A stretch of 64,000 nucleotides of DNA, taken from contig NZ_LT828541.1 of NCBI RefSeq assembly GCF_900170035.1, positions 98,987-162,986 of the forward strand, written 5' to 3'. The DNA comes from Desulfamplus magnetovallimortis (lineage in GTDB: Bacteria; Desulfobacterota; Desulfobacteria; Desulfobacterales; Desulfobacteraceae). Shown here one piece after another: positions 18,373 through 53,151 of this stretch; positions within the stretch are counted from its first letter, which is position 1, and each line of letters begins with the position of its first letter. The notes beneath the pieces are model-generated. The model worked only from the letters and a program-made list of their open reading frames with translations, did not search any database and was not told where the DNA came from. A program made the position numbers and the translations under genes.

Positions 18373-19332
18373 ATGAAGATCAATCGACGCAATTTTTTCA
18401 AGGTCATGGGTGCGACAGCAGTTTCAGGCAGTTCGCTTGCAGCTCTTCCATCCGACCTTACAGCCTGGGAATCAAAGGCTCCGCCTGATCCCTATGGATG
18501 TCTTGTGGATCTCACCAGGTGTGTTGGATGCCGCAAATGCGAAGAGGCATGCAGCCAAGTAAACGGCCTTCCGGCACCGGAACGTGCCAATTGCCAATGT
18601 ACAATCTTTGAGAAGAAAAGAAGACCAGATGACAAGGCATTTACAGTTGTAAACCGCTATTTTACCGGCAAACTGGACAATTTTGACAAACCCCTTCCAA
18701 CCTATGCAAAGGTTCAATGCATGCATTGCCAGGATCCTGCCTGTGTATCTGCCTGCATTGTAGGAGCTCTTACCAAGGATGAAACCGGAAGCGTAAGATA
18801 CGATGTCTCCAAATGCATTGGTTGCAGATACTGTATGGTGGCCTGCCCCTTTGAAATTCCGGCCTATGAGTACCATGATCCCATAACTCCAAGGGTAATG
18901 AAATGCACCTTCTGTTATGACAGGATTTCCAAGGATGGCGGAGTTCCTGGATGTGCAACCATCTGTCCCACAGAAGCCATTACATTTGGCAAAAGAGCCG
19001 ATCTTTTAAGAGTTGCCCACAAAAGACTTGATGAGAATCCTGGCAAATATATCAACCATGTTTACGGAGAAAAGGAGGCTGGCGGTACATCGTGGCTATA
19101 CATATCATCTGTTCCCTTTGAAGATGTAAATCTTCCTGCCCTTCCGGACAACCCCTCTCCAAAACTTTCCGAAACCATACAACACTCTCTTTTCAGCTAT
19201 CTCTGGTCGCCCATTGTGCTTTTCAGTACCCTTGGTGCTCTCATGTACAAATCAAACAAGAGTAATCCAGAAAATTCCAACGGAAAAAGAGGTACTTTAG
19301 AAGAAAAAAATATAACCAAAGGAGGTGCCTGA
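18373..19332 (+). CDS. Tat-exported ferredoxin-like subunit, HybA type
   Basis: Electron-transfer subunit of a periplasm-facing respiratory complex. It starts with a twin-arginine signal ([17 protein letters not shown]) and then has four cysteine groups: [35 protein letters not shown] and CTFCYDRI...CATIC. This fits four [4Fe-4S] clusters as in HybA/DmsB-like proteins. A C-terminal hydrophobic segment ([16 protein letters not shown]) would anchor it. At 319 aa it is typical for HybA. AAAGGAGG precedes the ATG. The next gene overlaps its stop. In this operon it should shuttle electrons between the HybB-like quinone subunit and the multihaem cytochrome. Confidence 0.92.
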
Positions 19333-20534
19333 TGAGCCATAAAGCCGCACCTTTAAACAAAAAATTCTGGACACCTGGCGTTCTTGTAATGGTGGCATTC
19401 ATGATTGCAGGCGGTATTGCCATTCTGGCAAGATTCACAGGTGGCATAGGCTATGTTGCAAATCTGAGCAACGCCAGACCATGGGGATTGTGGGTGGGAG
19501 TTGATGTTGCAACCGGTGTTGCCCTTGCTGCCGGAGGTTTTACCACTGCGGCACTTGCACATATTCTTGGAAAACACTTTTATGAACCTGTGACCCGGCC
19601 CGCACTTCTTACAGCACTTCTGGGCTACACATTTGTTGTTCTGGGGCTTCTTGTGGATATTGGCCGTTCCTGGGCAATCTGGAAGCCAATGTTTAACTGG
19701 AATACAAATTCCGTACTCTTTGAAGTTGCCATGTGTGTAATGGTATATCTGCATGTACTCTATATTGAATTTATTCCAATTGTTGCAGAGCAGTTCAAGG
19801 ACAGGGTAAACCTGCCCGGGCCTCTCTCCATTTTCAACGCTCTTGTCAATCTTCTACTGAAAATGGCTGATGCCATTCTTGATAAAATAATGTGGATATT
19901 TGTAATACTTGGAGTTGTTCTCTCCTGTATGCATCAGTCAAGCCTTGGCTCTCTTATGCTTATTGCCCCCACAAAAATTCATCCATTGTGGTACACCCCG
20001 ATACTCCCTTTGCTGTTTCTCACATCTGCATTTGCTGTTGGATATCCCATGGTGGTTTTTGAAACAACCATTGTCACATCCTCCTTTAATATTGATTCAG
20101 AGATGGAGGTTCTTTCCCCTTTAACAAAAATCACAACATTTCTTCTTGGAATCTACATGTTTCTTAAAATCGGGGACATGCTCATCAGAGGCACATATGT
20201 TTATCTCTTTGATGGGACATATCAGACAAATTCCTTTATTGTGGAGATGCTTATTGGTGTCATAATACCCTGGGGAATGCTTCTCTTTGAAAAGGTAAGA
20301 AGATCAAGAAAAGCTCTTTTTACAGCAGCCACAATGATTGTTGGAGGTGTTGCTCTTAACCGAATCAATGTATTCATAGTAGCCTATAAACCACCATTGA
20401 GCGAAGGTGGCTATTTTCCTGCACCAGGAGAAATTCTGGTGACTCTGGGTCTTATTGCAACACTTATGTTTATCTATAGAGTCATTGTCACCTACCTGCC
20501 TGTTCTGCAGGCACCCAAGGAGGTATCCTCATGA
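19332..20534 (+). CDS. NrfD/HybB-like integral membrane quinone-interacting subunit
   Basis: A membrane protein of 400 aa with about ten hydrophobic segments, similar in layout to HybB and NrfD: an N-terminal RFTGGIGYVANLSNARPWGLW segment, then GLLVDIGRSWAIWKPM. This family exchanges electrons and protons with the menaquinone pool without haem. AAAGGAGG lies before the ATG inside the end of the previous gene, and its stop overlaps the start of the cytochrome gene (ATGA at 20531), so the three proteins are coupled in translation. Confidence 0.92.
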   Translation: MSHKAAPLNKKFWTPGVLVMVAFMIAGGIAILARFTGGIGYVANLSNARPWGLWVGVDVATGVALAAGGFTTAALAHILGKHFYEPVTRPALLTALLGYTFVVLGLLVDIGRSWAIWKPMFNWNTNSVLFEVAMCVMVYLHVLYIEFIPIVAEQFKDRVNLPGPLSIFNALVNLLLKMADAILDKIMWIFVILGVVLSCMHQSSLGSLMLIAPTKIHPLWYTPILPLLFLTSAFAVGYPMVVFETTIVTSSFNIDSEMEVLSPLTKITTFLLGIYMFLKIGDMLIRGTYVYLFDGTYQTNSFIVEMLIGVIIPWGMLLFEKVRRSRKALFTAATMIVGGVALNRINVFIVAYKPPLSEGGYFPAPGEILVTLGLIATLMFIYRVIVTYLPVLQAPKEVSS

Positions 20535-22570
20535 TAAAAAAAATTGTTTACTTCACAGCTCTTATGCTTGTGACAGCCTTGATGCCAATGCATCTTTCCA
20601 TCCATAAGGCATCTGCTGCATGGACAGCTCCTGATCAGGAAGATGCAAAAAAAAGGGCAAAAGAAGTGGTTCCTTTCATCAAAGAATATAAGGATGAACA
20701 TAAAACCGCCAGAAAAATATCTCTTATGGATGCAGGAGTATCAATTAATGATGTAAAGGATGTCTATTTTCTTCTGGACAGCCCCATCATAAAAGAGCGT
20801 GAAGATCACTACGAACCTGTAAGATTTGCACATAAACGTCATGCAGCTCTTACCAAAGATTGCAGCAAATGCCACCACCTGCGGCCAAAAGATGAAAAAG
20901 AGCTTGAAACAACAAGGTGTTCGGCTTGTCACCAGGACTCTTTCAACTCTGAACATCCTGAAAGAATCGGCCTTAAAGCTGCCTATCACCAGCAGTGTAT
21001 TGAGTGCCACAGAACTGAAGCCAAGGGCCCTGTTGACTGTAAAGGATGCCATCTGCAAAATGTACCTGACCACAAAAATCTTGTGAAACTGCCTGACAAT
21101 GCAGATGTATTTCAGGTTACGGCAGAGTGTCTCAGATGCCACGATGCCCAGGCAAACGATATGCTAACAACAGCCCACTGGCTGTGGCGGGGTCCATCTC
21201 CCTACACAACAGGCCACAGAAAAGATATCATGCATGGCAAGGGCACAACTGCCCTTAACAATTACTGAATCAGCCCAATCAGCAACGAGGCTCGTTGCAC
21301 AAGCTGTCATGCAGGATATGGTTGGAAAGATCAGAACTTTGATTTTACAGATAAAGGAAAAATGGATTGCCTTGTATGCCATGACACAACCGGCAAATAC
21401 AAAAAAGACCCTCCGGCAGCAGGAATGCCGGAAAAAGATGTTGATCTGAAACTTGTTGCAGAAAATGTAGGGCACTCAAGCAGGGCAACCTGCGGTGCAT
21501 GTCACTTTAATGGTGGCGGAGGTGATGCCATAAAACATGCTGATATGTCAAGGCAGCTTCTTGAACCAGACAGAAACTGTGATGTCCACATGGGAGGATA
21601 TGACTTTTCTTGCACCGAGTGCCATAAAACCAGAAATCACAAAATCAGCGGCAGAAGCTCATCTGTACCTGTTGCAGAAGGAGAGGTAACCTGCCAGCAG
21701 TGCCACTCGGAAGAGCCTCACTACTGCGGAAGCCTTCTGGATCATCACCTGAACAAACATGCAAAAACCCTTGACTGCAATGTGTGTCACTCACCTGTAT
21801 TTGCCAAGTGCAAAGCAACCAAGACATGGTGGGACTGGTCAAAAGCCGGAGACAAGAATCGTAAACCCAAAAAAGACAAATACGGCCAACCTGACTATGA
21901 CTGGAAAAAAGGGGAGTTCAAGTGGGAAGAGTCTGCTGTTCCATCATATGCATGGGACTCGGGCTACATGAACCGCGTACTCATAGGAGACAAGGTTAAC
22001 ATCAACGCTGCTGTAATTAATCTGACAGAACCTGTCGGCTCTATCAAAGATCCAGCATCCAAAATAACACCTTTTAAGATCATGAAAGGTGTGCAGGCAG
22101 TTGACACTGACAACAACTACATCATTGTGCCCCATCTCTTCCCCCGCGACAAGGAGGACAAAACAGCATACTGGAAAAACCTTGACTGGGAAAAAGCCTT
22201 TGAAGACGGCATGAAAAGCGTTGGCCTTGCATACAGCGGTGCATACAGATGGAAGGAGACCTGGATGTACTGGCGCTTAGAGCATGAAGTTATGCCCGCT
22301 GATATGGCTCTTTCATGTGTTCAGTGCCACGACAGTCTGAAAGGTGAAAAGACCTGCAACCGCTGTCACCAGGACAACCGTGATGTTGATTTTAAAAATA
22401 TTGCCCACAAGGGAACTGACTTTTCATTCATGAAATCCCAGGGAAGGGATGTGGAACATCTGATTGAAAAGACAGATTATATAAACTTCAAGGCCCTTGG
22501 CTATAAAGGGGACCCCATCATCCACGGTGGCCGTTTCAAAAAATTGCCTATGGGATATAAAGATCAATAA
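20531..22570 (+). CDS. Selenocysteine-containing multihaem cytochrome c, tetrathionate-reductase (OTR)-like
   Basis: Read through one in-frame TGA, this is a 679-aa secreted cytochrome with 13 CxxCH haem motifs. The signal peptide ends near KASAAWT. Residues about 95-185 carry four motifs (CSKCH, CSACH, CIECH, CKGCH), like a tetrahaem domain. The rest starts with CLRCHDAQAND and resembles the octahaem tetrathionate reductase family. The TGA at 21266-21268 (codon 246) lies in NNY-x-ISPISNEARCTSCH, where I expect a conserved cysteine. The frame before and after is continuous and haem motifs occur on both sides. A perfect 7-bp hairpin with loop GGC follows 14 nt after the TGA, matching bacterial SECIS geometry. 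Reading it as two genes would leave the downstream part without signal peptide or ribosome site. The substrate is probably an oxidised sulfur or nitrogen compound; this is inference. Confidence 0.85.
21269..21305 (+). promoter_or_regulatory. Predicted bacterial SECIS element
   Basis: Directly after the TGA codon, GCAACGA (21282-21288) pairs perfectly with TCGTTGC (21292-21298) around loop GGC. The loop begins 21 nt after the TGA and starts with G, both within the known range for SelB-recognised elements. It is simultaneously coding (SNEARCTSC). Confidence 0.8.
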
Positions 22571-45972: not shown

Positions 45973-46053
45973 AACGTACATGGCGGATTACCGCCACAAT
46001 CGAAGGGATGAAAGTCGTTTTTAAAACAGGCTGTTACCGAGACTTTCATATAA
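45973..46053 (-). repeat. Unit of palindromic repeat family 3 overlapping a gene end
   Basis: ACGTACATGGCGGATTACCG...AAAGTCGTTTTTAAAACAGG...CGAGACTTTCATATAAA. It supplies the last ten or so codons and the stop of the hydrogenase maturation protease gene. In the remaining interval 45717-45972 I see nothing else that I can name. Confidence 0.82.
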
Positions 46054-46500
46054 AATCTTCAAGATCATCCTTGCCACAGGCTCAACCTGGGCGGCAATTG
46101 CAGGGGTAAGCTCTGTGCTGAGAGTACTTATATCCTGGGGCTCCACACCAAGTATAACAGTCTCCGGCACATTTCCCATAAGCCTGCAAAGGCTCAATGC
46201 CTCCAGAAGGTCAACCTGATGTATGGAGTTTTTACCAAGAATCCTATTGGGAATATCATCACCTTCAAGGCGATGCAGATCACCTGGTTTTCCCCTGTTT
46301 ATTATGGTATCAACCACAATAAGCCTGCGGGCACTTGAAATTACCCCAAGAAGATTTATCCCAAGAACCCCTCCATCCACAACTTCAATATTATCAGGCA
46401 AATCATACTCATTCTGAAGTTTTTCAACTACCCTGATACCAAATCCATCATCAGAATAGAGAATATTGCCAACACCAAGAACCATGACATCACTTTTCAT
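46021..46500 (-). CDS. hybD: [NiFe] hydrogenase maturation endopeptidase (HyaD/HybD/HysD family)
   Basis: A cytoplasmic protease of 159 aa that removes the C-terminal tail of the hydrogenase large subunit after nickel insertion. MVLGVGNILYSDDGFGIRVVE carries the first metal-binding acidic residue (Glu in family alignments, here in the DDGFG segment), DGGVLGINLL the second region, and KNSIHQVDLLEAL the conserved histidine. The frame opens at 46521, but the ATG at 46500 after GGTTGAG is the better start. The final residues (YESLGNSLF) are encoded by a family 3 repeat, so the native C-terminus was probably replaced. It follows the large-subunit gene, separated by inserted repeats. Confidence 0.9.
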   Translation of the reverse strand: MKSDVMVLGVGNILYSDDGFGIRVVEKLQNEYDLPDNIEVVDGGVLGINLLGVISSARRLIVVDTIINRGKPGDLHRLEGDDIPNRILGKNSIHQVDLLEALSLCRLMGNVPETVILGVEPQDISTLSTELTPAIAAQVEPVARMILKILYESLGNSLF

Positions 46501-46540
46501 TGATCTCAACCTGTAATTCATTCGTCTGTTCTAAATATTT

Positions 46541-46606
46541 ACCGTAAAAATGACTATCATTTTTATATTTGGGGGTGATTGATACATAATCAATCGTGCT
46601 CGTTTA
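46541..46606 (+). repeat. Unit of palindromic repeat family 2
   Basis: TACCGTAAAAATGACTATCA, TTTTTATATTTGGGGGTGATT, then the hairpin GATTGATACATAATCAATC and CGTTTA. Confidence 0.8.
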
Positions 46607-46850
46607 CTCAAAAACGACACCTATGTGCTTTTGAACCTTGTCAATACTGTCAGACTCAGGATGCCCAGGATCACAAGGATTTACAGGATAAAAATCCTGA
46701 GCATCCTGTAAATCCTGGTTATCCTGGTTCAGACAAATGCAATAACGTACATGGCGGATTACCGCCACAATCGAAGGGATGAAAGTTATTTTCAAAACAG
46801 GCTGTTACTGAGACTTTCATATAAAACGCCAAAAAGTTGTCGATTTTGAT
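46607..46850 (-). mobile_element. 174-type element (copy I) interrupted by a family 3 repeat
   Basis: CTCAAAAACGACACC at the left, core GTCAGACTCAGGATGCCC...CTGGTTCAGAC in the middle, GTCGATTTTGA at the right. Between GCAATAACG and CGCCAAAAAG an 80-bp family 3 unit (46744-46829) has been inserted. AACG occurs on both sides of it. Confidence 0.8.
46744..46829 (-). repeat. Family 3 palindromic unit nested in a 174-type element
   Basis: ACGTACATGGCGGATTACCG...CTGTTACTGAGACTTTCAT with both hairpins intact. Its insertion into another repeat shows that this family moves too. Confidence 0.8.
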
Positions 46851-46853
46851 TAT

Positions 46854-48491
46854 TTAAACCACCTGCACCTTGTAAGTCTCATTGCTTTCAGGATCAACAA
46901 CATGCACAGCACAGGCAATACATGGATCATATGAATGCACTGTTCTTAATATTTCCAGGGGTTTTGATGCGTCAGCAACAGGTGTTCCGATAAGTGATCT
47001 CTCCACAGGTCCCTTATTTCCCTTTGCATCAGCAGGACCGAAATTCCATGTGGAAGGGACAACATACTGATAATTCTTGATCTTGCTATCTTCAATCTCT
47101 ATCCAGTGCCCCAAAGCGCCCCTTGGTACATCGTTAAGACCAAAGCCTTTTCCTGTTTTTGGCATCTCCCATGCCTGATAGGTCTTTTTATCACCACTTG
47201 CAATATTGCTCTTAAGTGTTTCAAGCCAGTCGCCCATGGCATTGCCTATCACCTGTGTCTCAATTGCCCTTGCAGCGGTCCTTCCAAGTGTTGAAAAAAG
47301 TGCCTCTTTTCCAATAGATAGTTTTTTCAAAACACCATTTACAGCAGCCTGAACATCAGCATTACCATGGGCATATGCCACAAGCACCCTTGCAAGTGGG
47401 CCAACCTCTGCTGCAAGACCATCATATCGTGGAGCTTTAAGCCAGCTATAGCTTTTATCTGTATCGTAAACAGGTTCCCCCTGAATGGGGCGTGTCTCTC
47501 CAGCAAAAGGATGTCGAGCTTTGCCTTTTTCATACCATGCACGGGTGACATCTTCTGTGATCATATCGGGGTTGATATTTTCAACCTCCAGCCCCTTGCG
47601 AATGAAACCAGCAGGCATAAGTTTTTCATTTTCGGCAGTGTCATTGGCAAAATCCCCATAGGCAAGAAAAGCATCGTTGTTGCCACCAATTGCACCCCAA
47701 TCCTTGTAAAATGAAGCAATTGCCAAAAGATCCGGAATATAGATCTTATCAATAAAATCTGTTGTCTCTTTCCATATCTCTCCAAATTCATGAATGCGAT
47801 CCGCACTTAAATCTTTGACAGATGTGACACCCCCAACAACCAAAAACTGGGGATGCGGATTCTTGCCACCAAATACAGCGTGCATTCTTGCCGCTTTTGC
47901 CTGGAGCTTGAGAGCTTCAATATAATGTGAAGCAGCCATTAGATTGGCCTCGGGTGGAAGGAGATAAGCTGAATGTCCCCAGTATCCATTGTTAAAAGGA
48001 CCAAGCTGACCGCTTGAGACAAAGGTTTTAAGTTTATCCTGAATCTCCCTGAAATATTCGCTTTTTTGGGGCATCCCGCTTACGTTTTCCGAAAGCTTTG
48101 CAGTTTTCACAGGATCTGCATCTAGGGCACTTACAATATCCACCCAGTCAAGTGCATGGAGATGATAGAAATGAACCAGATGATCATGCTGAAACTGTGC
48201 CCCGTGGATCAGGTTTCTAATGAGACGTGCATTATCAGGGATTGTGATATTGCAGGCATCCTCAACCGCTCTGACTGATGAAAGTGCATGAACATAGGTA
48301 CAGACCCCGCAGGATCTCTGTACAAAATGATGAGCATCCCGTGGATCCCTTCCCGTAAGCATCATCTCAATGCCACGGAACATCTGTCCCGAGCACCAGG
48401 CATCCTTTACCTTTCCGTTTTCAATCTCAACCTCTATTCTCAAGTGTCCTTCGATCCTTGTAATAGGATCAATGATAATTCTTTTACCCAT
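46854..48491 (-). CDS. hydB: Periplasmic [NiFe] hydrogenase large subunit
   Basis: The catalytic subunit of an uptake hydrogenase, 545 aa. The N-terminal nickel motif is RSCGVCTYVH and the C-terminal one is DPCIACAVH. The second Ni-binding pair starts with an ordinary cysteine codon, so this is a [NiFe] and not a [NiFeSe] enzyme. The residues after AVH (VVDPESNETYKVQVV) are the tail cut off by the maturation protease. It follows the small subunit by 167 bp and is exported with it by the Tat pathway. The electrons probably go to periplasmic cytochromes such as the type encoded elsewhere in this window. Confidence 0.96.
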   Translation of the reverse strand: MGKRIIIDPITRIEGHLRIEVEIENGKVKDAWCSGQMFRGIEMMLTGRDPRDAHHFVQRSCGVCTYVHALSSVRAVEDACNITIPDNARLIRNLIHGAQFQHDHLVHFYHLHALDWVDIVSALDADPVKTAKLSENVSGMPQKSEYFREIQDKLKTFVSSGQLGPFNNGYWGHSAYLLPPEANLMAASHYIEALKLQAKAARMHAVFGGKNPHPQFLVVGGVTSVKDLSADRIHEFGEIWKETTDFIDKIYIPDLLAIASFYKDWGAIGGNNDAFLAYGDFANDTAENEKLMPAGFIRKGLEVENINPDMITEDVTRAWYEKGKARHPFAGETRPIQGEPVYDTDKSYSWLKAPRYDGLAAEVGPLARVLVAYAHGNADVQAAVNGVLKKLSIGKEALFSTLGRTAARAIETQVIGNAMGDWLETLKSNIASGDKKTYQAWEMPKTGKGFGLNDVPRGALGHWIEIEDSKIKNYQYVVPSTWNFGPADAKGNKGPVERSLIGTPVADASKPLEILRTVHSYDPCIACAVHVVDPESNETYKVQVV

Positions 48492-48658
48492 AATAATATC
48501 CCCTGATTAATAATAGCAATTTTGATGAGCCTGTAAAACATTCCACCCTGAGCTATACTAATTAATTATTATGTAATTATTAGTAATTGACAGGCTATTG
48601 TTATGGAAATTTCGAGGCCACGAATATTGATAGTTTTAACTTTTCACACGAGCATCAA

Positions 48659-49606
48659 TCATGCCTCTTCGTAAAAAGGTGTCATTGTATCCCAAAAACC
48701 AGGCTCGCTGCACCCTATGCATGGGTGGCCAGCCTGTATGGGAAAACTTGTGCCATCATTAAATTTTGCAGTGGGACAGTTATTATAGGTTTCAGGGCCT
48801 CTGCAACCCATTTTGTAAAGGCAATATCCCAGTTCAGCCTCCTTTGAACCGAACTCTTCTACATACTCGTCATTTTCAAAATGCTTTAATCTTGGACAAC
48901 GGTCATGAACTGTTTCTGCATATGCAAAAAGAGGTCGTCCCAGCTCATCAAGTTCTATCTTCTCCTTATTTAGATATTTCACTATTGTTGCAAGCAAGTT
49001 CAAAGGATTAGGCGGACATCCAGGAAGGTTTATGGTTGCAACACCAATGGCATCTTTTACGCCTTTATATCCGCCAGGATTGGGAGCGGCTGCCGGAAGA
49101 CCTCCGTAAGCTGCACATGTACCAAGGGCTATTGTTGCAGCAGCATTGGGAATGATGGATTTTGCAATTTCAAGAAAGCTTCTGTCAGCAACCTTACCGT
49201 AACCACCATTATATTTTGTGGCAATGGAGCCTTCAACCACGCATACAAATTTCCCTTTGTATTTTTCCACTGCATCGTGAAGTGACTTTTCTGCCTGATG
49301 CCCTGACGCAGCCATTATGGTTTCATGATATTCCACAGATATGGTTTCAAGAATTATAGCTCCTACATCAGGGGTTCGCAAAAAAGCTTCCGAACACCCT
49401 GTACACTCTCCAAAATGGAGCCATATAACAGGTGGACGAGGTGATGCAGCAGCCTTCTCAACTGCCTTCACCACCTGCCCTGTACAGGATAATGTCAATC
49501 CCATTGATGCAGTCAATGCTGTACAATATTTAAGAAAATCCCGCCTGGAGACACCTTTTGCTTCAAGACGATCATAAAACTCCTGGTTTCTGTCTTTTTC
49601 TTCCAT
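48659..49606 (-). CDS. hydA: Periplasmic [NiFe] hydrogenase small subunit with Tat signal
   Basis: An iron-sulfur subunit of 315 aa. VSRRDFLKYCTALTASMGL near residue 20 is the Tat signal that carries the heterodimer to the periplasm. ECTGCSEAFLR, GTCAAYGG and LPGCPPNP provide the proximal cluster ligands. The C-terminal cysteines (CPRL, CLYKMGCRGP, CPTAKFN, HPCIGCSEPGF) fit the medial and distal clusters. No C-terminal membrane anchor is present, so it is a soluble Desulfovibrio-type enzyme. Upstream AGGAGG precedes the start. Confidence 0.96.
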   Translation of the reverse strand: MEEKDRNQEFYDRLEAKGVSRRDFLKYCTALTASMGLTLSCTGQVVKAVEKAAASPRPPVIWLHFGECTGCSEAFLRTPDVGAIILETISVEYHETIMAASGHQAEKSLHDAVEKYKGKFVCVVEGSIATKYNGGYGKVADRSFLEIAKSIIPNAAATIALGTCAAYGGLPAAAPNPGGYKGVKDAIGVATINLPGCPPNPLNLLATIVKYLNKEKIELDELGRPLFAYAETVHDRCPRLKHFENDEYVEEFGSKEAELGYCLYKMGCRGPETYNNCPTAKFNDGTSFPIQAGHPCIGCSEPGFWDTMTPFYEEA

Positions 49607-50844: not shown

Positions 50845-52137
50845 TTAATCCAGCCCATATTCAGCAAGATCAGGCCCAAGATATGTTCTCTCGTTTTCAC
50901 CAAGAATCCCAAGTGATAAACATATAAGTGTCCAAAGGTGAACAGTGTGGTACCCCCCACGAAAATGGTGGGAGAGATCCTCAATTTGAGCATGACAATT
51001 ATGACATGGAGTTACCACATAATCTGCACCTGTGGCTTTTATCTGATTGAACTTTATGACACCATATTCACGTCGCTCATCATTATAACCGGACTGTAAG
51101 GCTCCTCCTCCGCCACCGCAGCAAAAATTGTTTGACTTGTTGGGAGTCATATCCACAAAATTTTCCTCCCCCACAACCTGTTTCACAACAAAACGCAGAT
51201 CATCGGCCATACTGTCCCCACGGGATTTACGAATGAGATTGCAGGGATCCTGTACCGTAAATTTAATATTTCCGGTATTCCAGTCGGAATTGACAGGAAG
51301 CTTGCCCTCCCGTATCCACTGTGCATAGAGCTCCACAATGCTTTTGAGTTCAAATTTATGGGGGATATTGAAACGCTGCAAGCCTGACCACAACGCAAAA
51401 AAGGAGTGTCCGCATTCGGTGTTGACAAGGACTTTGCATCCAAGTCTGTCTATGTGTTCTGCCTGCTCACGGATGATATGCTCCCAGGAAGAATCATCGG
51501 CAAGGAACATGCAGTAATTCTCTCCTGCCCACATGGTGGAGTAGTATGTCCAGTCCGCTCCTGCCTTATGCAGGATTTTCCACAGGGGCAGAAGTTCATC
51601 AGGCTCTGTTACAGGCTCACGGGAATTCTGGTTCAGGGCAAAAAAAGCCCCTTCCCTGTCAATATCTGCCTTAAGCTCTTCAAATCCAGGCTGGGTCTCC
51701 CGGCACTCCTCGGCCAGATCTTCAACGGTGAATTTAAAATCATCCAAAGGAACGCCCATGGCACCTCCTCTGGATTTAAGATGGTGGTCGCAGGAACCAA
51801 GAATTCCCTTGGGTCTCTCTTCCCTTGGCCACTTTGATCTAATGTAATAGATCAATTGAGGGATATTCAACTGCATCGGGCAAATGTCATAACATCTTTT
51901 ACACATGGTGCATGACCATACCCATGGATGACGTTCAAGCTCGGCATCCATACCGAGCACTGCCATCCTGACAAATTTTCTGGGATCCATATCCATGATC
52001 CCTGTGGCAGGGCAGCCGCTGGAACAGGCGGCACAAGTCAGGCAGGCGGTAAGGTTACCGTCCTCTATTAATGCATTTACCTGATCTTTAATTCCATTTA
52101 CTTTCCTGAATTCATTCAGTTTCAATACGTCGAGCAT
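50845..52137 (-). CDS. HdrD/TmcB-like iron-sulfur protein with CCG domains
   Basis: A protein of 430 aa. Two ferredoxin-type cluster motifs are near the N-terminus (CLTCAACSSGCP and CTMCKRCYDICP). In the C-terminal half are cysteine-rich CCG-like domains (TECGHSFFALW, CCGGGGGALQSG with TPCHNCHAQ). This architecture is that of heterodisulfide reductase subunit D and of the TmcB/Hmc6-type subunits of transmembrane cytochrome complexes in sulfate reducers. It is cytoplasmic and moves electrons to or from thiol-disulfide or menaquinone partners. The usual neighbours of the Tmc complex are not in the window, so the exact complex is open. Confidence 0.85.
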   Translation of the reverse strand: MLDVLKLNEFRKVNGIKDQVNALIEDGNLTACLTCAACSSGCPATGIMDMDPRKFVRMAVLGMDAELERHPWVWSCTMCKRCYDICPMQLNIPQLIYYIRSKWPREERPKGILGSCDHHLKSRGGAMGVPLDDFKFTVEDLAEECRETQPGFEELKADIDREGAFFALNQNSREPVTEPDELLPLWKILHKAGADWTYYSTMWAGENYCMFLADDSSWEHIIREQAEHIDRLGCKVLVNTECGHSFFALWSGLQRFNIPHKFELKSIVELYAQWIREGKLPVNSDWNTGNIKFTVQDPCNLIRKSRGDSMADDLRFVVKQVVGEENFVDMTPNKSNNFCCGGGGGALQSGYNDERREYGVIKFNQIKATGADYVVTPCHNCHAQIEDLSHHFRGGYHTVHLWTLICLSLGILGENERTYLGPDLAEYGLD

Positions 52138-52344: not shown

Positions 52345-52495
52345 TGTAAACAGGCATGATTGATTACGTATCAATCACCCCCAAATATAAAAATGATAGT
52401 CATTTTCACGGTAACCTGTCATGACAGCAGAGACAAGACATGCCTTGTCTCTACTGCCGCCCCCGAATATGAAAATTTGTATTCATTTTATTACA
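52345..52495 (-). repeat. Two units of palindromic repeat family 2 (inverted)
   Basis: GATTGATTACGTATCAATC then CACCCCCAAATATAAAAATG and CATTTTCACGGTAAC, followed by a second unit with the hairpin AGAGACAAGACATGCCTTGTCTCT. The sequence fills the gap between yedF and the HdrD-like gene. Confidence 0.75.
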
Positions 52496-53151
52496 GTTGT
52501 ATAACTTTATCAGCCAACTGCATAGCTGTAACAATATCAAGCATATTAGTGGTCTCTCCCACCTTTTTAGCATCCATAAGATTAAAATGGGTAAGGCAGG
52601 TACCACAGACCAGAATCTTAAGACCATCGGCTTCATAACTTTTCAAATCATCAAGCACTTCTGAGCCTTCAATGGCAAGTTTCACACCATTGTTTACAAA
52701 GACAAGACGCCACAGCTCGTCTCCCATCTCCTTGATGGTTTTCAAAAAACTGATCATAAGTTTTTTCCCAAGCTCATCATCTCCAAAACCCATTCTGTCA
52801 GTTGCAGCAAGCACCATGATCTTCTGTTTATGACTTTCAGCGGCTCCGGAAGTTGCATCAGAAGCTGCACCTGCTTTCTGATTTCTTGATTCACTTTGTG
52901 TTTCAGAGTTTGTACTCTCATTTACAGGGGAATCATCTGAAAACTCAACCGTTATTCTGAAATCGCCGCCTTCCCGAATAACATCAACACCCAATGACCT
53001 TGAGCCAAAAAATCTTGAAACATTTTCCATGGAAGCTTCATTATCAACCAAAACAGTAATGGCTTCTCTGGTTCCCTTATCTACTGCTTTTTTTTGCCAT
53101 CAAAACAGGAGCTGGACAGGCCAACCCCCTTGCATCAATTATCTGTGACAT
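52491..53151 (-). CDS. yedF: YedF selenium-metabolism protein, frame broken at an A8 tract
   Basis: YedF proteins couple a TusA-like domain (CPxP motif) to a DsrE-like domain and accompany selenium genes. The ATG at 53151 opens MSQIIDARGLACPAPVLMAKK and then meets TAA. The rest continues one base out of frame: AVDKGTREAITVLVDNEAS and a C-terminal domain ending ADKVIQL. The shift is at eight A (53088-53095 on the plus strand as T8), where seven would give one 219-aa protein. Possible readings are a real mutation, phase variation, polymerase or ribosome slippage on A8, or a sequencing error. A linker rich in Ser, Asn and Glu separates the domains. Confidence 0.85.

Follow-up and report, generated by a model that had tools for sequence, protein, structure and literature searches.

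The 64,000-nucleotide stretch of DNA analysed here (the window), from the sulfate-reducing bacterium Desulfamplus magnetovallimortis, contains a gene, at positions 20531-22570, that very probably codes for a periplasmic member of the octahaem tetrathionate reductase (OTR) family that is a selenoprotein: a stem-loop would direct the insertion of selenocysteine (Sec) at codon 246, in the place of Cys64 of the characterised enzyme, and the chain of haems would be linked to menaquinone. The original prediction, of selenocysteine in an OTR-like multihaem cytochrome, is supported by the column that this codon occupies among homologues, by the selenocysteine machinery of the genome and by the recurrence of the codon in independent assemblies, all of which agree. 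The features on which the argument depends are the following:

18373..19332 (+): Tat-type ferredoxin subunit, HmcB/HybA-like (NF045715 (HmcB), 336.7 bits, cut-off 420; HybA, 283 bits, cut-off 263)
19332..20534 (+): NrfD/HmcC/HybB-like membrane subunit (PF03916, PRK10881/HmcC; conserved upstream in relatives)
20531..22570 (+): predicted Sec-containing 13-haem cytochrome, made up of a signal peptide, a tetrahaem c3-like domain, an octahaem OTR domain and, towards the C-terminus, one more haem motif (translation, CxxCH count, profile matches)
21266..21268 (+): TGA codon 246, a putative selenocysteine codon at the position of Cys64 in 1SP3 (1SP3 alignment, column survey)
21282..21298 (+): SECIS stem-loop GCAACGA-GGC-TCGTTGC (folding, synonymous-shuffle test, frozen codons in 27 distinct relatives, fit to the bSECIS model)
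21296..21310 (+): CTSCH of haem 2, the catalytic haem, residues 256-260 (invariant in the homologue alignment; Cys74 onwards in 1SP3)
21533..21535 (+): Lys335, equivalent to Lys153, the OTR haem-2 ligand (K in 153/153 homologues; 1SP3 numbering; PMC11024163)

Architecture and family of the cytochrome

The gene is translated as one frame of 679 residues, which starts 7 bases past an AGGAGG site and is interrupted by a lone in-frame TGA, at codon 246. Thirteen CxxCH motifs are found in this frame: four N-terminal to the OTR part, eight inside it (at residues 200, 256, 280, 321, 361, 388, 416 and 596) and one C-terminal to it. The translation and the motif count thus bear out the earlier view that the TGA parts two halves of a single 13-haem cytochrome, the second of which was said to have no start or signal peptide of its own; the next in-frame ATG (21362) lies within the haem region and a signal peptide is absent. 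Gene callers were expected to split such a gene, and the calls are indeed 20531-21268 and 21362-22570. Profile searches match PF11783, Cytochrom_CIII and, at residues 30-175, an HmcA/TmcA-like region; the N-terminal part, with its four CxxCH motifs, is akin to class III cytochromes and to the end of HmcA.

The assignment to the OTR family is given by TIGR04315, which scores 483.7 bits over residues 193-602 (curated cut-off, 375), and by the presence of the eight haem motifs and of the lysine ligand of haem 2. A cysteine at the position of Cys64, also a mark of membership, is replaced here by TGA/Sec, as it is in 65 of 151 homologues, and the cytochrome is, judged by its sequence, a chalcogen variant within the family. 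Activity on tetrathionate, nitrite or hydroxylamine is a further mark of the family. The same residues align with 1SP3, the octahaem tetrathionate reductase of S. oneidensis (SO4144), with an E value of 1.6e-112, and the alignment pairs codon 246 with residue 64, 10 residues N-terminal to the CxxCH of haem 2 (CTSCH, from residue 74 in 1SP3 numbering), and Lys335 with Lys153. The top structural match of an AF2 model of modest confidence, built without haems and with a mean pLDDT of 67, is also 1SP3 (TM 0.83 by target length). The likeness to OTR therefore extends to the domain above the TIGR04315 cut-off, the eight haem motifs, the equivalents of Lys153 and Asn61 and the fold, whereas the Sec in place of Cys64, the fused N-terminal tetrahaem c3-like domain, the extra C-terminal haem motif and an operon with HmcB/HmcC-like subunits set the present protein apart.

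In the OTR structure paper of Mowat et al., of 2004, Cys64 is reportedly placed in the haem-2 pocket, and a search of the open literature returned no description of the pocket around Cys64 and Lys153. Haem II of OTR is regarded as the catalytic haem, with a conserved lysine ligand (PMC11024163; PMC4484225), and the physiological role of the enzyme is considered uncertain, to the point of being termed cryptic (PMC11024163).

Exchange of cysteine and selenocysteine among homologues

A survey of 72 related loci and 400 genomes from the side of the Desulfobacterota, with L049 and L052 left out as frameshifted assemblies, yielded 153 distinct OTR cores, 151 of which have a residue at the TGA column. 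This residue is TGA in 65, Cys in 84, Thr in one and Ala in one, that is, Sec or Cys in 149 of the 151, and the site is thus the one at which the family keeps its cysteine, as had been suspected. An in-frame TGA that aligns with the cysteine of homologues and is conserved among relatives is what is expected of a bacterial selenoprotein. The Lys153 column holds K in all 153 cores, and the Asn61 column holds N in 148 of them. Cysteine at the TGA column occurs across the wider OTR family, including a second OTR gene of the same genome (L088), and exactly one TGA is present in 31 of the 79 matches above the TIGR04315 cut-off in a sample of the phylum. Many relatives function with Cys at this position, so the OTR fold does not depend on Sec. 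A tree of 117 OTR cores requires at least six Cys/Sec changes, a number that carries no direction.

The notion that the gene is a pseudogene, or that the TGA is a miscall, draws on the splitting of the gene by the callers and is already refuted by conservation, which leaves it a negligible chance: 65 distinct homologues share the TGA column, which is therefore not due to chance, the codon recurs in dozens of genomes, each assembled independently, which means that a different base at 21266-21268, against which the original prediction advised a check, is not at issue, the downstream half is conserved (protein identity up to about 85%), and the surveyed cores have no second TGA, save for one frameshifted MAG.

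Some members of the survey are worth describing on their own. Among those with the TGA is a cultured bacterium, Desulfocicer vacuolatum DSM 3385 (L033). Only L169 and L171 have a residue other than Cys or Sec at the TGA column (Thr and Ala), and both keep the equivalent of Lys153. Two distant OTR-like proteins below the cut-off (L180 and L181) have a TGA at the aligned position, in the context ETYU/HSYU-APPNTVAGHNW, and probably represent a separate, further Sec lineage. Desulfospira joergensenii (L027:5001-7010) falls within the Sec clade, yet its gene has TGC and a broken stem, and its genome has kept selB; this is probably a reversal from Sec to Cys, a rare kind of change (PMC13188914). Within a patch of 10 codons, which is very short, the gene shares 18 of 30 bases with a Sec neighbour and 24 of 30 with a Cys-type gene, which makes it a candidate for either such a reversal or a short gene conversion.

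Selenocysteine machinery and the stem-loop

The four genes that a bacterial selenoprotein requires in its genome are all present above their cut-offs: tRNA-Sec (selC) with 76.6 bits (cut-off 47), selB with 361.5 (242), selA with 595.6 (268) and selD with 370 (125), selD itself containing one TGA. The absence of selB and selC had been named as an outcome that would speak against selenocysteine. In addition, selB is above the cut-off in five of six other genomes with OTR-family TGA genes; the sixth (G082), which is very fragmented (610 contigs), gave no selB above the cut-off. A yedF gene, also said to be in the window, is found at about 52494-53093 on the minus strand (TIGR03527, 179.7 bits, cut-off 110).

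The open frame on either side of the TGA would also be explained if the codon were read as another amino acid, either as tryptophan under code 4 or by leaky near-cognate read-through. This is extremely improbable: TGA is the real stop of both genes directly upstream (18373-19332 and 19332-20534) and tryptophan is encoded by TGG 15 times in the cytochrome gene, so the code is not that of table 4; the alternative residue in relatives is cysteine and never tryptophan; and the sel genes and the SECIS element are present.

The proposed insertion of selenocysteine would be directed by a stem, GCAACGA/TCGTTGC, with the loop GGC, that begins 14 nt past the TGA. The 45-nt fold has a z-score of -2.2, and 5 of 200 shuffles are equally low. 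The bSECIS model (PMC13188914) calls for a loop of 3-9 nt with a G within its first two positions, a stem of 4-16 bp, a distance of 16-37 nt from the UGA and a minimum free energy of -7.5 or lower; the element found here has a 3-nt loop (GGC), 7 bp, a spacing of 20 nt and -9 to -12 kcal/mol. The folding and the model therefore concur with the initial description of a perfect stem in the geometry of a bacterial SECIS. At gathering level, Rfam gave no match in the 64-kb window, a result that carries little information for bacterial SECIS elements as short and diverse as these.

The bases of this stem, referred to as type A, are invariant, which makes covariation unusable, and synonymous tests at the level of codons were used instead. 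Codons +5 to +10 (AGC AAC GAG GCT/TCT CGT TGC) carry no synonymous change in any of 27 distinct sequences, whereas the flanks vary freely; the differences seen are a Gly at +5 in one sequence and a sole change in the loop, from GG to GU, which exchanges Ala for Ser. A second stem, type B (CTGGTGC-AGGT(or AGTT)-GCACCAG), is likewise conserved in 21 Sec sequences of other lineages, one of which has small changes in the stem. The Cys homologues have neither stem, and the 39 that contain an xPRC motif place Pro at +8, with an unconstrained choice of codons. Among the Sec forms, 25 of 48 fold better than synonymous recodings of the same peptide (p 0.05); among the Cys forms, 4 of 57 do so. The median p values are 0.045 and 0.53, respectively.

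Residue +8 is Ala/Ser or Cys in all Sec forms of both types. In type A, the Pro (CCN) found at +8 in most Cys forms gives way to Ala or Ser, whose codons supply the G-G or G-U of the loop that the SECIS model requires; in type B it gives way to Cys, whose codon lies within the stem. The base sequence of the stem or loop thus decides this residue, so that the RNA signal shows in the protein sequence, and the RNA partly sets which amino acids lie nearby.

A further possibility is that the TGA serves a regulated truncation, by which low selenium would yield a short cytochrome (residues 1-245, comprising the tetrahaem part and one haem motif more), the complete enzyme being made only when selenium is available. 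With its five CxxCH motifs, the stretch before the TGA would be plausible as a c3-like product, although the argument is unspecific, given that every selenoprotein is truncated without selenium; moreover, the N-terminal part is much reduced in some Sec relatives (frames of about 500-550 codons), which means that conservation does not extend to the short product. Regulated truncation is, consequently, very unlikely.

Proposed function and Hmc-like partners

The recoding context, the position of the residue, the Sec machinery, the constraint on the RNA, the domains and the operon are seen in the sequence, from which we infer selenium itself, as well as the substrate, the direction and the chemistry of the cytochrome. 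In the proposed mechanism, SelB and Sec-tRNA, brought by the stem-loop, would insert Sec at UGA 246, and its selenol would occupy the place of Cys64 of OTR, presumably in the pocket of the Lys-ligated haem 2. Electrons would be exchanged between the menaquinone pool, the NrfD-like (HmcC-like) and HmcB-like subunits, the tetrahaem c3-like domain and the eight OTR haems. Most likely, the selenolate would attack an S-S bond or another oxidised sulfur substrate of the tetrathionate kind, with haem 2 donating electrons; as an alternative, Sec could assist the reduction of an N-oxide with electrons from the same haem. The selenolate would then be regenerated by the haem chain, and the enzyme could also run in the oxidative direction.

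We lean towards the complete reading, in which the selenol, on the distal side of a haem that has a lysine ligand, acts as the catalytic nucleophile and is supplied through a haem wire linked to menaquinone, in a family with at least six Cys/Sec swaps at this site and two SECIS elements that dictate the residues next to them. Dozens of sulfate and sulfur reducers naturally have Sec at this one position, which would therefore hold a residue that does redox chemistry. Another proposal is that Sec has a structural or electronic role, tuning or ligating haem 2, instead of acting as a catalytic nucleophile: the lysine already ligates haem 2, and a chalcogen near the iron could set its potential or block the site. 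The strict exchange of Cys and Sec at one position is, however, the usual pattern of redox-catalytic residues, and a merely structural Sec appears rather unlikely, though it deserves consideration.

The idea that Sec in the cytochrome of a sulfur-compound reductase would be a new twist does not stand. TIGR04315 is already listed, with one Sec (WP_331457571.1), among the selenoprotein families annotated in GenBank (PMC13188914, a 2026 review, Table 1), so the basic claim, a selenoprotein form of TIGR04315, is known to databases. Compared through this listing alone, the GenBank protein belongs to the same family and has one Sec as well; the review gives neither motif, position, SECIS nor function for it, whereas the position and the SECIS are specified here. 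ExtKL (NF040886), likened to the present protein only by its listing in the same table, is a multihaem c-type cytochrome too, of a different family. The literature searched contains no account of the active-site position, of a 13-haem fusion in an Hmc-like operon, of two SECIS types or of at least six switches, and cytochromes are absent from the text of a study of Sec in Desulfobacula-like bacteria (PMC8318568). What is new comprises the position in the predicted active site, the fusion into a 13-haem architecture, both types of SECIS and the repeated Cys/Sec switching. The mechanism of OTR becomes testable by Cys/Sec exchange, and the family offers a natural series for this interchange. Gene callers go on splitting such genes, which leaves marine sulfate reducers with wrongly annotated respiratory cytochromes.

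The NrfD-like gene overlaps the start of the cytochrome gene by four bases (ATGA) and also overlaps the HmcB/HybA-like gene, and the order HybA-like, NrfD-like, cytochrome is found again in Sec and Cys relatives alike. As in the Hmc complex (HmcABC) of Desulfovibrio, there are HmcB-like and HmcC-like partners and a haem domain, here N-terminal, that resembles the C-terminus of HmcA. Unlike in Hmc, both subunits score below the equivalog cut-offs (HmcB as listed above; HmcC, 272.7, cut-off 550), the catalytic part is OTR and not the 16-haem HmcA, and HmcD-F are absent immediately downstream.

Elsewhere in the window, on the minus strand, 46021-49606 encodes the large and small subunits of a NiFe hydrogenase and a maturation protease; the large subunit is just above the cut-off of the NiFeSe model, but its C-terminal DPCIAC has Cys and not Sec. 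Near this hydrogenase lies an iron-sulfur protein that resembles HmcF/TmcB/DsrK (50845-52137, minus strand) and is below all the equivalog cut-offs.
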